A model generated the notes under the pieces. That model saw only the letters and a program-made list of their open reading frames with translations. It was not told the origin of the DNA and did no database searches. A stretch of DNA of 41,182 bases from Candidatus Poribacteria bacterium. GTDB taxonomy: Bacteria; Poribacteria; WGA-4E; WGA-3G. Of the stretch, positions 21,445-26,190 are shown in pieces. Numbering within the stretch: the first letter of the stretch is position 1; every line of letters starts with the position of its first letter. The DNA lies in NCBI GenBank assembly GCA_009843785.1, contig VYCT01000219.1, positions 1 through 41,182 of the forward strand. Direction: 5' to 3'. The translations under genes and the position numbers were made by a program.

Positions 21445-21966
21445 CTACACCGTATACTGCTTCAGTGTATCGTCATCTAAATTCTCTAAAACATCTTTCG
21501 GGTCGTGCTGCTCGCCCTGCTCGAGTTCTTGTTCAGAGAATCCGTGGTCTGCAATCACATCTTCGGCAATATAGATCGGCACGTCGCAGCGCAGCGCAAG
21601 CGCGATCGCGTCACTCGGACGGCAATCCACCTCAATCGTGTTATCATTCACTTCCAAAGTGATGTGTGCATAGAACGTCCAGCGGTTATTCAGCTGTTCA
21701 ACCGAGTGTACACACACATTTATGACCTTTGCCGCAAGCGTCTGAATCATATTTTTCAGCAAATCGTGTGTCATCGGGCGCGGGAGTTCTACATTTTCCA
21801 AATGCATCTGAATAGCTGCCGCTTCCGATTCACCGATCCAAATTAGCAGTATCCGGTTGAGACTGTCCTCTTTCTCTTTCAGGACTACGATGGGCGCGCC
21901 TGTACCCCGATCAATAGAGAGAAAATGAACTTTAACTTCAGTCGTCGTCTGTTTCTCAGTATCCAT
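21445..21966 (-). CDS. DUF151 bifunctional nuclease-family protein
   Basis: A 173-aa protein with the full DUF151/BFN pattern: VVLKEKEDSLNRILLIWIGESEAAAI, an ELPRPMTHDLLKNMI segment, and VDCRPSDAIALALRCDVPIY. In other bacteria this fold is linked to nuclease activity on DNA or RNA; the true cellular role is not settled. It starts at ATG 21966 with GAAAGGAC upstream. Its acidic C-terminus (about residues 142-165) is an extension beyond the conserved core. It lies 127 bp before the methyltransferase genes and 213 bp after the flotillin, so it may be its own transcript. Confidence 0.92.
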   Translation of the reverse strand: MDTEKQTTTEVKVHFLSIDRGTGAPIVVLKEKEDSLNRILLIWIGESEAAAIQMHLENVELPRPMTHDLLKNMIQTLAAKVINVCVHSVEQLNNRWTFYAHITLEVNDNTIEVDCRPSDAIALALRCDVPIYIAEDVIADHGFSEQELEQGEQHDPKDVLENLDDDTLKQYTV

Positions 21967-22034: not shown

Positions 22035-22190
22035 AAAGAGAAGGTGGGGGATGTAGAGGGTGGGTTGCCCAACCCCTACGCACCTTCATAAAAAATGTCA
22101 ATTAATCGGCATAAAGAGAAGGTGAGGGATGTAGAGGGTGGGTTGCCCAACCCCTACGCACCTTCATGAAAAATGTCAATTAATCGGCAT
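22035..22190. repeat. Tandem 78-bp duplication spanning the flotillin stop codon
   Basis: Two adjacent copies (22035-22112 and 22113-22190) differ at only two or so bases. Each contains an outer stem GAAGGTG/CACCTTC and an inner GTGGGTTGCCCAACCC hairpin-like core flanked by GTAG/CTAC. The right-hand copy covers the last two codons and stop of the flotillin gene, so the left-hand copy carries a duplicate of that coding end outside the gene. Confidence 0.85.
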
Positions 22191-24075
22191 CAGGTGAATC
22201 ATCTGAACTCACTTGCGTATCCACCGCCAATTCGGCATCAGGTGAACCATCTGAACTCACTTGCGTATCCACCGCTAATCCGGAAGCGTAATCCCGAACA
22301 GTCCGGGCAATCTTTTCGGTGTCTAAACCGCTGAATCCAACAATCTCCTTGAGCAAGGGTACGGCTGCCCCCGCGTTGACAATCGAACTGAGAACACGGT
22401 TCATACCGCCGCCGCCATTGCCGTTGTTTCCGAGATCAAGTACCCGGATGCTTTCAATGCGTTCCGCAGGTTTCATCAATTCGCCTGTCACCTCAGGGAG
22501 TGATTCCACGAGTGCCAATATAGCATCACTCACGAGCACTTTGGAATCCGCCTGATTCTTCGCAGCAATAGAGGCTTCTTCACCATCAGCCTTCGCTTTC
22601 GCTTCAACGAGCAGTGCCTCTGCGAGAATTCTCTGTGCCTGCGCTTCAAGCTCAGCGGCTTCAAGCGCTGCCTTGGCGGCTTCCACAACGGCGTATGCCT
22701 CTGCATCCGCATTGCGTTCTTTGGCAATCCGTTCCTCATCGGCTTCTTGCTCGGCACGGATCAGTTCGATTTTGCTTTGACGTTCCGCTTCCTCAATCGC
22801 TTCGGCTGTTAAAACTGCTGCTTCGGCTCTCGCCTTTTGTGCACTCACCTCCAAGAGTTCAGTGAGTGCCGCCTCACGTTCCTTCTCTTTGATTGAAACC
22901 TGGACCGCGTTTTCGGCTTGTGCCTCTTTTTCCGCGCGATCTTTCTCAACGAGAACGATTCGACTCGCGATGCTTGTTTCTTCTACAGCGCGTTCCTGCT
23001 CAATCTTGGCAGTTTCGACAGAAAGATTACGCTCGATTTCTGCTTCCTGAACCGTCTGTTCTTGTTGCACACGTGCAATTTCGATTGCCTGCTTTTGTGC
23101 AATTTCTGTCTCTTCGACTTGGCGTTCCTGTTCAATCCGAGCGGTCTCTAACCGCTGCTTCTGCATAATCTCCGAGGACTTGACCGCCTCTTCCTGTTTG
23201 ATGCGCGCTTCTTCAACAGCCTGCTGCTGCTCAAGTTTGTGCGCTTCAACCTCGCGTTCCTGTTCTGCCTTGTTCGTAGCGATGGCTTTCCGTTGCTCTT
23301 CTTGTGCAAACTCAAGCCGTCTCTCGACCTCTAACCCTTCCGTTTCCGTCTCCTCCTCGCGCTGCTTAATCTCAAGTTCGGCTTTGAGACGATCCTCTTC
23401 ACGCTTCACCTTGTTTTCGTGCTCAATCCGAGCCGTTTGCGTCTGCTTGTCTTCAACCTCTTGCTTGATCGTCTGAATTGCAACAACATCAAAACGGTTA
23501 TTCTCGTCAAGCGCATCAAGCGGCGTCTGGTCAAGATTCGTGACAGCAACGCTTTCTAATTTAAAGCCGTTTTGCTCAAGATCATCGCGACAGGCTTCCT
23601 GAACTTGGTCAGAAAATTCTTGGCGCTTTTCGTGCAGTTCTTGGAGGTCCATAGTCGCAGCAACACTTCGTAGGACCCCGACAAGTTTACCTTCAAGGAG
23701 TTTATTAACGGCTTCCGGAGTTAGGGTTTTATCACCGAGACTTGCGACAGCCTTGAGTACATCTTGTTCGTTGGGTTCAATCTTGACATAGAATTGCGCC
23801 TCTATATCAACCCGTAAACTGTCTTTTGTAATCAGCGCGCCTTGTCCTGTACGTTCAACAGGTAACTGGAGCGTATTTAAGGAAATGAGTTGGTGCGTGT
23901 TGGTAATCGGGTTAATAAGGGTACCACCAAAGACGACGCGCTTTTTACGCCCACCAGAGATCACTAACGCCGCATCCGCGGGCGCCTTTTTATAGAACGA
24001 ACGATAGACTAACAGAAAAATAACGATCAGCGCAACAACGCTACCGATAATCGTAACAAACAAATTGGGATTCAT
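22180..24075 (-). CDS. Flotillin-like SPFH/band 7 protein (YqiK-type)
   Basis: About 631 aa from ATG 24075 (GGAG eight bases upstream; the TTG two codons earlier is too close to that site). An N-terminal membrane helix (FVTIIGSVVALIVIFLLVY) leads into the SPFH domain (about 30-190, including SLNTLQLPVERTGQGALITKDSL). A long Glu/Ala/Gln-rich coiled coil follows (about 200-500), and then a C-terminal segment with LESLPEVTGELMKPAERI, typical of YqiK/FloT flotillins. The tail ends in a duplicated 16-residue acidic unit. Flotillins oligomerise and organise membrane microdomains. The NfeD-like partner gene is 26-32 bp upstream, the classic YqiJ-YqiK or YuaF-FloT pairing. Confidence 0.95.
   Translation of the reverse strand: MNPNLFVTIIGSVVALIVIFLLVYRSFYKKAPADAALVISGGRKKRVVFGGTLINPITNTHQLISLNTLQLPVERTGQGALITKDSLRVDIEAQFYVKIEPNEQDVLKAVASLGDKTLTPEAVNKLLEGKLVGVLRSVAATMDLQELHEKRQEFSDQVQEACRDDLEQNGFKLESVAVTNLDQTPLDALDENNRFDVVAIQTIKQEVEDKQTQTARIEHENKVKREEDRLKAELEIKQREEETETEGLEVERRLEFAQEEQRKAIATNKAEQEREVEAHKLEQQQAVEEARIKQEEAVKSSEIMQKQRLETARIEQERQVEETEIAQKQAIEIARVQQEQTVQEAEIERNLSVETAKIEQERAVEETSIASRIVLVEKDRAEKEAQAENAVQVSIKEKEREAALTELLEVSAQKARAEAAVLTAEAIEEAERQSKIELIRAEQEADEERIAKERNADAEAYAVVEAAKAALEAAELEAQAQRILAEALLVEAKAKADGEEASIAAKNQADSKVLVSDAILALVESLPEVTGELMKPAERIESIRVLDLGNNGNGGGGMNRVLSSIVNAGAAVPLLKEIVGFSGLDTEKIARTVRDYASGLAVDTQVSSDGSPDAELAVDTQVSSDDSPDAD
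22191..22283. repeat. Tandem in-frame 48-bp duplication in the flotillin tail
   Basis: Two copies at 22191-22235 and 22239-22283 (period 48 bp) encode LAVDTQVSSDGSPDAE and LAVDTQVSSDDSPDAD at the very C-terminus. Both this repeat and the 78-bp one carry TCGGCAT at their junction, which suggests slippage or unequal exchange at shared microhomology. Confidence 0.85.
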
Positions 24076-24107
24076 GTTCAATTCTCCTTTCTAATGCTGA
24101 ATTGACG

Positions 24108-24863
24108 CTAATCTACTTCACTCTTTCTGACATCAAAGATCCGCTTTCTGCGATCATAGTTTATAAGAATTATGGTATCTCCCTTGACAGGAGTGGCTTC
24201 ATCGGATTTGGTGCGGCAACTGACAGTTAATTCCGGACCATCCGGAACTTGGACACGAGCGGTACCAAAAGTTGTGGTAATTTGTCCACTAATAACGCGT
24301 CCACTTAAACCGAGGAGATGTACATCGCTGATGGCTCTCTCGCTTTCAGGGAATAGTTTTGAAAGGGCGAGAGATATATAGCGCGTACAAACAAAACAAC
24401 AGAAAAGCGCAATCACACACGATATCCAAACCCACCCGGGTCTTTCTGGCACATTAAGGGATGCGTTGGCAATAAGTCCAGCAAGCCCCCATGTCCCAAA
24501 CAGCGACATCAGCACAACCATCAACGGAACTCTCCCAACATTCAGGAACCCAAATACGTCGCCGAAAGAGAAGCCCTGCCCGCCCGCATCTACAGCCACA
24601 TCCGCATCCGCATCTATATCTACGTCCGCATCTATATCCACATCGGCATCTATATCCACATCGGCATCTATATCCACATCGGCATCTATATCTACGTCCG
24701 CATCTATATCCATATCGGCATCTACGTCGGCATCTGCATCCGCATCACCGAAGTCCATTGCTCCCATAGCAAGTCGAAAGAGCGCAAATATGAACACAAT
24801 CGTTAACGGTGCCGTAAACCAGACATTATACGAGGCGAGGAAATAATCCAAGAATTCTTTCAT
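24108..24863 (-). CDS. YqiJ/NfeD-like membrane protein with Asp-rich repeat
   Basis: A 251-aa protein: one helix (about 15-37), an Asp-rich repeat (40-93), two more helices (about 112-133 and 143-165) and a C-terminal OB-like domain (about 182-250, [20 protein letters not shown]). Helices plus a cytoplasmic OB fold are the design of YqiJ/NfeD proteins that pair with flotillins. The insert is one ADMDID and five ADVDID hexads within a longer DADAD run. It lies between the first helix and the central pair and is far longer than anything I recall in this family. The gene sits 9 bp after the PH-like gene and just before the flotillin. Confidence 0.88.
24585..24746 (-). repeat. Coding 18-bp tandem repeat (ADVDID units)
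   Basis: The DNA encodes alternating Asp with Ala, Val or Ile. The core repeats an 18-bp unit, read on the plus strand as ATATCCACATCGGCATCT with silent variants. The near-identity at third positions points to recent expansion by slippage. The plus strand of the same repeat is also open (SASIST units) but that is a by-product. Confidence 0.9.
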
Positions 24864-24872
24864 GGTTTTCTT

Positions 24873-25253
24873 CTACTTTGCAATCTGATCCGTAATGTAG
24901 ATGTAGGCACAGCGTGCCGAACGGAAGCTGATATTATCGATCCAATGGACATTACGCAGCACGCTAATTTCCAATTTCGCTTGGTTGAGGAGCCGATGCT
25001 TGAACTGGCGGACCAACTTCACATCACGAATCTCGGTGAATAACAGGTTACACCGGATATTCGCATAAGAAACGCCGAGGCTGCCTATATACCGCTCATC
25101 TAAAACCAGCACCCGCCGCGCCGTGATAAAAACGAAATCCGGACGCAGCAGATCCGAACGCCCGAGGATGCACAAACAGACCTCTTCATCCTCGCCTATC
25201 TGCGCGCGCACAGTCTTTTGGATACGAGGTGGCATGTTCGTAAATTCAGCCAT
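24873..25253 (-). CDS. PH-like domain protein upstream of the NfeD-flotillin pair
   Basis: A 126-aa soluble protein whose pattern (EDEEVCLCILGRSDLLRPDF, FITARRVLVLDERYIG, FTEIRDVKLVRQF) matches bacterial PH-like domains: strands around a T-x-R-R-x-x-x-x-D turn, then an amphipathic end. No membrane helix or enzyme motif is visible. It is 9 bp before the YqiJ/NfeD-like gene and runs the same way, so the three genes probably form one operon. A role as a cytoplasmic adaptor at the membrane is inferred. Four cysteines are present without a metal-site pattern. Family call moderate, operon membership good. Confidence 0.65.
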   Translation of the reverse strand: MAEFTNMPPRIQKTVRAQIGEDEEVCLCILGRSDLLRPDFVFITARRVLVLDERYIGSLGVSYANIRCNLLFTEIRDVKLVRQFKHRLLNQAKLEISVLRNVHWIDNISFRSARCAYIYITDQIAK

Positions 25254-25308: not shown

Positions 25309-25661
25309 TGGAGGTGGCGGGAATCGAACCCGCGTCCGAAGGCATTTCAATAGAGGCTACTACATGCTTATCACAGGTTTGAAGATTCGCCGATAAGCCT
25401 CCCCTGTGCAGGATTCATCATAGGCTATCTCAAAAGTGATTCGCGGCACGCCCCTTGAGAAAGAGCGAGCGGCTAGCCCGTATTACGACGCTTTAACTGC
25501 CCTGACGGGCGGCAAGTCAGTCAAGCGTAGCCGCATTATTAGGCAGCTAGTGCTAATTCTTCATCAGCAATTATAAGTGTTCCGCCTATTTAACGAGGCC
25601 TGCGGAGACCTCGGCATGCAACCTATATCTCATTTACCTTCGTCGAAACCTTGACACCCCC
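25309..25661 (-). ncRNA. ssrA: tmRNA (ssrA)
   Basis: On the minus strand the 5' end GGGGGTGTCAAGGTTTCGAC and the 3' tRNA-like part (GCGGGTTCGATTCCCGC, then CACCTCCA) form a seven-pair acceptor stem, GGGGGUG with CACCUCC. CCA is not encoded. The tag frame at 25542-25568 reads ADEELALAA followed by TAA TAA, so the added peptide would be A-ADEELALAA if GCT is the resume codon. The RNA is about 353 nt, a normal length. It lies 30 bp after smpB, its protein partner in ribosome rescue, and is probably co-transcribed with it and then processed. Confidence 0.97.
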
Positions 25662-25691: not shown

Positions 25692-26150
25692 TTAGGTATA
25701 CGCCCGTATCTCATTTGCTGTCGCTTCACGTTCAATCTTATCGCGTTTATCGTAAAGCCGCTTCCCCATCGCAACAGCCAATTCCAACTTCACTCTGCCG
25801 TTGCTGAAATACGCGCGCGTCGGAACGATCGTCATCCCCTTTGAACGAATCGAACGTTCAAGCTTCGTGATCTCTCGACGATTGAGCAGCAGTTTGCGTT
25901 TGCGTTTCGGTTCGTGGTTGGCGATATTTCCGTGTTCATACGGACCGATGTGCGCATCAATGAGGAACACTTCACCGTCTGTTACCTGTGCGTAACTATC
26001 TGTCAGGTTCAGCCGTCCCGCGCGAATCGCCTTCACTTCAGTGCCTTGCAAAACGACACCCGCTTCATACCGGTCACGTAAGTGATAGTCATACCGTGCT
26101 TTGCGGTTAACGGTAATCGTTGGGGTTGTAGAATCTTTGGCACTTTTCAT
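25692..26150 (-). CDS. smpB: SsrA-binding protein SmpB
   Basis: About 152 aa from ATG 26150. Family motifs are clear: NRKARYDYHLRDRYEAGVVL, GTEVKAIRAGRLNLTDSYA, AHIGPYEHGNIANHEPKRKR and the basic tail KRLYDKRDKIEREA that enters the mRNA channel. SmpB binds tmRNA, which is encoded 30 bp downstream, for trans-translation. The open frame goes back to 26186, but the extra residues (MYINSYGILNIT) match no SmpB feature, and a promoter-like TATACT at 26161-26166 lies inside them. If that promoter is used, the mRNA has almost no leader. Confidence 0.97.
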   Translation of the reverse strand: MKSAKDSTTPTITVNRKARYDYHLRDRYEAGVVLQGTEVKAIRAGRLNLTDSYAQVTDGEVFLIDAHIGPYEHGNIANHEPKRKRKLLLNRREITKLERSIRSKGMTIVPTRAYFSNGRVKLELAVAMGKRLYDKRDKIEREATANEIRAYT

Positions 26151-26160
26151 AGTGATGTTA

Positions 26161-26190
26161 AGTATACCATAAGAATTAATGTACATGCAA
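26161..26190 (-). promoter_or_regulatory. Candidate promoter of smpB-ssrA
   Basis: On the minus strand, TTGCAT is followed after 18 bases by TATACT. The predicted start point near 26154 is only about 4-5 nt from ATG 26150, so the mRNA would be nearly leaderless; no ribosome site is visible upstream of this ATG, which agrees. Confidence 0.45.

Follow-up and report, generated by a model that had tools for sequence, protein, structure and literature searches.

Why would the membrane partner of a flotillin carry a loop in which every second residue is aspartate, and is that pattern kept for a purpose? The question is raised by a contig of Candidatus Poribacteria (VYCT01000219.1, assembly GCA_009843785.1), of which 41,182 nucleotides, referred to here as the window, were analyzed. 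The gene concerned (24108..24863, minus strand) encodes a 251-aa YqiJ/NfeD2-like protein, assigned with PF21001, hhalign, and Foldseek, in which a first transmembrane helix (TM1) is followed by an acidic loop, TM2, TM3, and an OB-like domain. A sequence-only reading had described the loop as an expanded Asp repeat inserted in a flotillin partner and had suggested calcium binding or a role as an electrostatic spacer.

The Asp-rich tract spans residues 40-93 (24585..24746, minus strand), with 26 Asp in 54 residues. Its strictly alternating part, residues 40-88 (24600..24746, minus strand), holds 25 Asp at every second position without a break, and five tandem ADVDID hexads occupy residues 55-84 (24612..24701, minus strand). 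The density, the hexads, and the spacing had thus been described correctly. The longest D.D.D run was 25, compared to a maximum of 6 in 2000 whole-protein shuffles and 14 in 20000 loop-only shuffles. The hexads are encoded by 18-bp units: copies 2-4 are identical, and copies 1 and 5 share one sequence that departs from the others by silent changes alone; TRF likewise reported an array of period 18 at 24600-24724, so the description of 18-bp units with few silent changes was borne out. Because three of the five units are identical and the other two differ only silently, the latest duplications appear to be recent. Reading frames on the plus strand are also open across the repeat, but the minus-strand frame is fixed by homology, selection, and operon context. 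NCBIfam matches suggesting kinship with hexapeptide transferases or MSCRAMM proteins were rejected as composition only; they scored 21-23 bits against cut-offs of 999-2500, were confined to the tract, and do not make it an MSCRAMM SD-repeat. No sequence relative was found in the PDB.

The window protein matched PF21001 (YqiJ_N) with an E value of 2.8e-9 and 37.6 bits, compared to a curated cut-off of 23, and the same domain was matched by 29 of 29 members of alignment A1. PF07290 (YqiJ_OB) fell below threshold in the window protein and in all Poribacteria rows, and one A1 member matched it (E 1.2e-23). A Poribacteria profile aligned with an E. coli/proteobacterial YqiJ profile at an hhalign probability of 98.3% over 201 columns; the two profiles had no shared rows, and Oceanicaulis was left out to avoid circularity. 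The C-terminal OB region lay within this alignment. In the AlphaFold2 model of the window protein, helices were predicted at residues 14-40 (24744..24824), 114-135 (24459..24524), and 142-170 (24354..24440), followed by a five-strand OB-like domain at residues 187-247 (24123..24305), all on the minus strand. The proposed position of the tract, between the first helix and a central helix pair, agrees with this model.

We compared the window model with that of a tract-less homologue, which was somewhat better (mean pLDDT 67, pTM 0.43). For both, the best Foldseek match in the PDB was YbbJ of the QmcA-YbbJ complex (8z5g; E 7.6e-5 and 5.4e-4). The soluble NfeD-type domains 3cp0 and 3wwv ranked second and third for the tract-less model, and 3cp0 ranked third for the window model. 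The order of transmembrane helices followed by an OB-fold is that of the NfeD superfamily, in models of modest confidence (pTM 0.43 for the tract-less homologue). Since both model confidences were modest and the global TM-score to YbbJ was low (0.2-0.36), these results support the fold class rather than its detail. Together with the conserved adjacency of a flotillin gene, the PF21001, hhalign, and Foldseek results uphold the identification as a YqiJ/NfeD-like flotillin partner. The idea that the carboxylates line one face of a strand fared less evenly: the geometry is correct and hydrophobic residues are conserved on the opposite face, but AlphaFold2 predicts no strand in the tract and gives a pLDDT below 50 over residues 36-101. 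When alone, the tract is probably disordered according to this model.

The next gene downstream (22180..24081, minus strand) encodes the cognate flotillin, with Band_7 and Flot domains (PF01145, E 1.2e-16; PF15975, E 9.5e-18), and a flotillin gene adjoins the YqiJ gene in 55 of 63 tract-clade copies. It is followed by a bifunctional nuclease gene (BFN_dom; PF02577, E 1.4e-36) at 21445..21966 on the same strand. Upstream lies a 126-aa ORF (24873..25253, minus strand) with weak similarity to a bacterial PH domain (bPH_3; PF14470, E 0.008, below cut-off). In almost every Poribacteria locus this ORF precedes YqiJ, including loci from which the flotillin gene has been deleted, and its product may be a steady third partner.

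A homologue set of 64 distinct proteins was extracted. All named relatives above 45% identity were Candidatus Poribacteria, and the gene was present in 55 of 59 genomes of the window's family. Comparison of repeat number among related genomes, which the sequence-only reading had called for, revealed a family-wide tract of 19-71 residues in 60 of the 64 proteins, namely 59 from two families of Poribacteria and one from Bacteroidota. Acidic residues filled nearly every D-phase position (1179 D and 41 E, or 1220 of 1233; 99%), and the other phase was A, V, I, M, F, or L at 97% of positions. The amplified unit was the six-residue DIDADV (18 bp) in the window's genus and the eight-residue DADVDFDV (24 bp) in a second genus; because different genera amplified different units, lengthening must have occurred separately by lineage. 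Of 10 pairs at least 97% identical in the remainder of the protein, 7 had tracts of unequal length, the largest difference being 12 residues. Unit number thus varies between close species, and it may also vary between cells, as the sequence-only reading had suggested. The parity of such length differences was considered as a sign of selection on phase and discarded as worthless, since the tract finder yields only odd lengths and duplication of 6n bp preserves phase. Loop length from anchor to anchor was odd in 47 cases and even in 10.

The same loop is short in other Poribacteria families, for example IGDIAIDMDDESGED, and in E. coli, so the tract is an expanded native loop and the word "inserted" was wrong: the TM1-TM2 loop belongs to the family itself and has expanded across the whole lineage. 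A local insertion or strain-specific oddity is ruled out by this family-wide occurrence. Oceanicaulis (L037) and Dysgonomonas (L038) copies also alternate; they came from a pattern set that included DVDADMDI and so give no measure of prevalence. In plasmid and E. coli homologues, identified by whole-protein similarity, the loops were short or acidic and non-alternating. Queried with the window protein, plasmid sequences gave no relative and phage sequences a single weak match, which lay outside the tract. In plasmid-borne loci of Hymenobacter, Vitreoscilla, Bosea, and Agrobacterium (L138, L139, L140, L141), a PspA/IM30 gene was seen directly before the YqiJ gene, a gene order that agrees with described operons (PMC11237479).

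Codon comparisons indicate that the pattern itself is constrained. Seven pairs with tracts of equal length together showed 20 silent and 4 replacement changes in D-phase codons, the latter being two D/E, one D/N, and one D/G. The neutral expectation for a GAY codon is approximately 11-27% silent, and P was about 1e-8 or less under any transition bias tried; the excess is large, although the model was simple and only seven pairs were available. Of 16 replacements in the other phase, 14 were swaps among A, V, I, and M. The 20 silent versus 4 replacement changes argue that the Asp pattern is under purifying selection. On these codon counts, selection keeps the alternation while length shifts fast through duplication of 6n-bp units, a clear bacterial case of tandem repeat DNA that changes quickly beneath a selected amino acid pattern. 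Elsewhere in these genomes, long, near-pure (Asp-Ala)n tracts were observed in Poribacteria proteins with export-like N-termini (L096, L097, L098, L099), with lengths very different between genomes. Both kinds of tract have alternating Asp; however, these linkers have hardly any residue but Ala in the other phase and occur in proteins that look exported, whereas V, I, M, F, and L make up 59% of the other phase in the YqiJ tract. Since the other Asp tracts are almost pure (DA)n, the V, I, M, and F of the YqiJ tract are no general habit of these genomes.

Within the tract-bearing clade (four genera and a second family), a tract of at least 19 residues was kept in 55 of 55 copies with a flotillin gene next door, flotillin presence being assigned from the contigs at hand. 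Tracts of 3 residues or fewer were seen only in copies without an adjacent flotillin. Two grouped flotillin-less copies (L031 and L032) had tracts of 3 and 1, and L090, which groups with them, had a tract of 25 with N, G, S, and K inside. Tract length was 19 in flotillin-less L022 compared to 25 in its sister, and 3 in flotillin-less L093 and L094 compared to 37-71 in relatives. In L005, where the flotillin is reduced to a C-terminal fragment, it was 19 compared to 45-53 in sisters. L111 (genome G075), in contrast, had a normal tract of 27 (sisters, 19-31) although its flotillin is likewise reduced to a C-terminal fragment. The nuclease gene follows YqiJ directly in L022, L090, L031, and L032, and in L005/L095 a flotillin C-terminal fragment lies between them, which indicates that the flotillin gene was deleted in those loci. 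Genome-wide searches of G039, G040, G058, G005, and G011 revealed no other close flotillin.

Flotillin status changed six times on the tree. In four of five flotillin-deleted lineages the tract was shorter, decayed, or absent; complete loss occurred in two separate events, both without flotillin, with shortening or decay in three more copies and one lineage unchanged. A sign test on the five independent pairs gave a median p of 0.6. Because this test is underpowered and one lineage is unchanged, we call the link suggestive only: the module itself is real and probably tied to flotillin, but the association is not phylogenetically significant. The persistence of flotillin-less YqiJ copies beside the bPH-like gene argues that YqiJ also has some flotillin-independent use.

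Two genomes, G036 and G045, have two YqiJ copies each (L066/L095 and L067/L091), and the native copy lacks an intact flotillin and has a short tract or none. The second copy, whose tract has 51 residues, belongs to a complete YqiJ-flotillin pair like that of the other genus and looks like a replacement by transfer. The flotillin C-terminal remainders at L095:3800-4240 and L111:602-991 have about 100-120 matching residues in open frames of 147 and 130 aa; each may be either a remnant or a small surviving domain.

Two nearly invariant positions, R30 and R/K111, bracket the loop, and few positive residues are present on the N-terminal tail and loop 2. From these positive-inside residues, and from the cytosolic location of NfeD-type OB domains (PMC11222466), the loop and C-terminus are predicted to be cytosolic. 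Regarding an OB domain that binds its SPFH partner from the cytosolic side, the positive-inside residues are consistent with the cytosolic placement only. As a TM1-TM2 loop, the tract does lie beside the membrane, as had been proposed, and an electrostatic spacer there is still viable. Flotillin cores had a net charge of -29 to -47, and longer tracts accompanied more acidic flotillins (rho -0.65, with no phylogenetic correction). Since flotillin itself is strongly acidic, a simple attraction of the tract to flotillin is weakened. Core length was 512 in 37 of 38 flotillins, against a threefold variation in tract length; the tract therefore does not set ring size, and its use as a ruler for the ring was ruled out.

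Free Ca2+ is low in the cytosol. Canonical Ca2+ loops, whether DxDxDG or the RTX motif GGxGxD, were found in no flotillin-paired Poribacteria tract, and these tracts accordingly fall outside the RTX, EF-hand, and thrombospondin-3 types. DxDxDG occurred only in L090, a decayed tract without flotillin, and in the Bacteroidota copy L038. With canonical loops absent and the loop predicted to be cytosolic, the calcium idea is left without positive support.

Known SPFH systems offer a frame for these observations. E. coli YqiJ (DUF1449; PF21001, PF07290), the partner of flotillin YqiK, shares the three transmembrane helices and the OB-like domain and is likewise encoded directly upstream of its flotillin; its loop, however, has approximately 25 residues and no such tract, compared to 19-71 residues of alternating Asp in Poribacteria. 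YbbJ of the QmcA-YbbJ cage (PDB 8z5g) resembles the window protein in having an SPFH partner in the same operon, but QmcA is SPFH1 whereas the partner here is a flotillin (SPFH2). According to PMC13086221, this E. coli SPFH-NfeD cage comprises 26 heterodimers protruding into the cytoplasm; the structure is that of Tan et al. 2024, as cited in PMC13086221 and PMC12624060. In Staphylococcus aureus, an OB-fold partner on the cytosolic side binds and stabilizes flotillin oligomers (FloA-NfeD; PMC11222466), although the NfeD form is different and no Asp tract is reported, the terms "acidic" and "aspart" being absent from the text of that paper.

Taken together, these data lead us to favor, tentatively and at somewhat less than an even chance, a reading in which the TM1-TM2 loop of flotillin's NfeD2/YqiJ-type partner has been expanded into a polyanionic, amphipathic, flotillin-linked module at the membrane base of an SPFH-NfeD assembly. 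In this reading, the expanded alternating Asp/hydrophobic tract shortens, decays, or vanishes after deletion of the flotillin gene, a step that is supported but unproved. In a many-copy cage, several hundred carboxylates contributed by the loops could ring the base on its membrane side; were the assembly like the E. coli cage, 26 heterodimers with 25 Asp each would bring the number close to the membrane to about 650. What is conserved on the second face is hydrophobicity rather than mere smallness of the residues, and we therefore propose that the loop adopts extended, amphipathic, strand-like contacts only once assembled. In that state it might serve as an electrostatic bristle or spacer, holding cations or cationic partners and adjusting the spacing of the cage; exact length would then matter less than total charge and pattern. 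That these fast-evolving Asp-hydrophobic loops fold together only on assembly into a tunable polyanionic collar at the base of the cage is possible but on balance doubtful.

One alternative is a slippage-prone linker without specific function, in which any hydrophilic sequence is tolerated and the alternation is merely inherited from the repeat unit. Hypervariable length, the three identical 18-bp copies that mark recent duplication, the different units amplified in different genera, the (DA)n linkers of other Poribacteria proteins, and the disorder predicted by AlphaFold2 would all be accounted for. Such a linker would not, however, be expected to show purifying selection on D-phase codons, conserved hydrophobic residues in the other phase, or loss in 0 of 55 flotillin-paired copies, and we consider it unlikely. 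The assembly could instead be at fault. Short-read assembly of a MAG can miscount a low-complexity array of 150 bases by one unit, and the unit count in this genome could be off by that much, but the same architecture was present in more than 50 separately assembled genomes, and the chromosome-level records OX639973 (L007, tract of 47) and OX638316 (L013, tract of 35) carry the tract. As an explanation for the existence of the tract, an assembly artefact or annotation error is therefore refuted.

The remaining alternatives assign the carboxylates a ligand. Rows of carboxylates could fold to a strand or sheet on Ca2+ or Mg2+ and so couple flotillin assembly to cation level, and both the alternation on one face of a would-be strand and the need of an acidic flotillin and an acidic loop for counter-ions in order to associate would suit such an element. 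The absence of DxDxDG and RTX motifs outside L090 and L038, the lack of the Gly and Asn used by known Ca2+ loops, the predicted cytosolic location, and the lack of a PDB sequence relative make it quite unlikely. A tether by salt bridges, either to cationic clients or to flotillin's basic juxtamembrane strip (YRSFYKKAPAD..GG[RNS]KKR), would explain why the tract is present wherever flotillin is paired and why long-tract Poribacteria flotillins have GG[RNS]KKR at a site that reads GG[SA]KEK in the unpaired SPFH paralogue from these genomes and GG[QK]KV or similar in Proteobacteria. However, the flotillins are themselves negative, more so with longer tracts; the E. coli YqiK strip has a similar number of K/R although YqiJ has no tract; and only about two contrasts are independent, so that this tether appears improbable. 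Because the cores are acidic, and more so with longer tracts, attraction to the strip explains the data no better than cation-mediated association or a repulsive spacer does.

The YqiJ/NfeD2-type flotillin partner was already known (PMC2636767, PMC11237479), and the new element is the alternating-Asp tract; the literature searched, which covered little of the subscription journals, contained no account of the tract or of such a collar in an SPFH complex. With its fixed pattern, its variable length, and its apparent dispensability after flotillin loss, the loop offers a direct experimental handle on what NfeD-type proteins do for flotillins.

Other repeats and a tmRNA were observed near the gene. 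The 3' end of the flotillin gene contains a 48-bp in-frame duplication that encodes AVDTQVSSD[GD]SPDAE twice (22184-22283), and an intergenic 78-bp tandem duplication follows this 3'-end repeat (22035-22190). A tmRNA gene (tag ADEELALAA) and smpB adjoin each other at 25309-25661 and 25692-26186, both on the minus strand.
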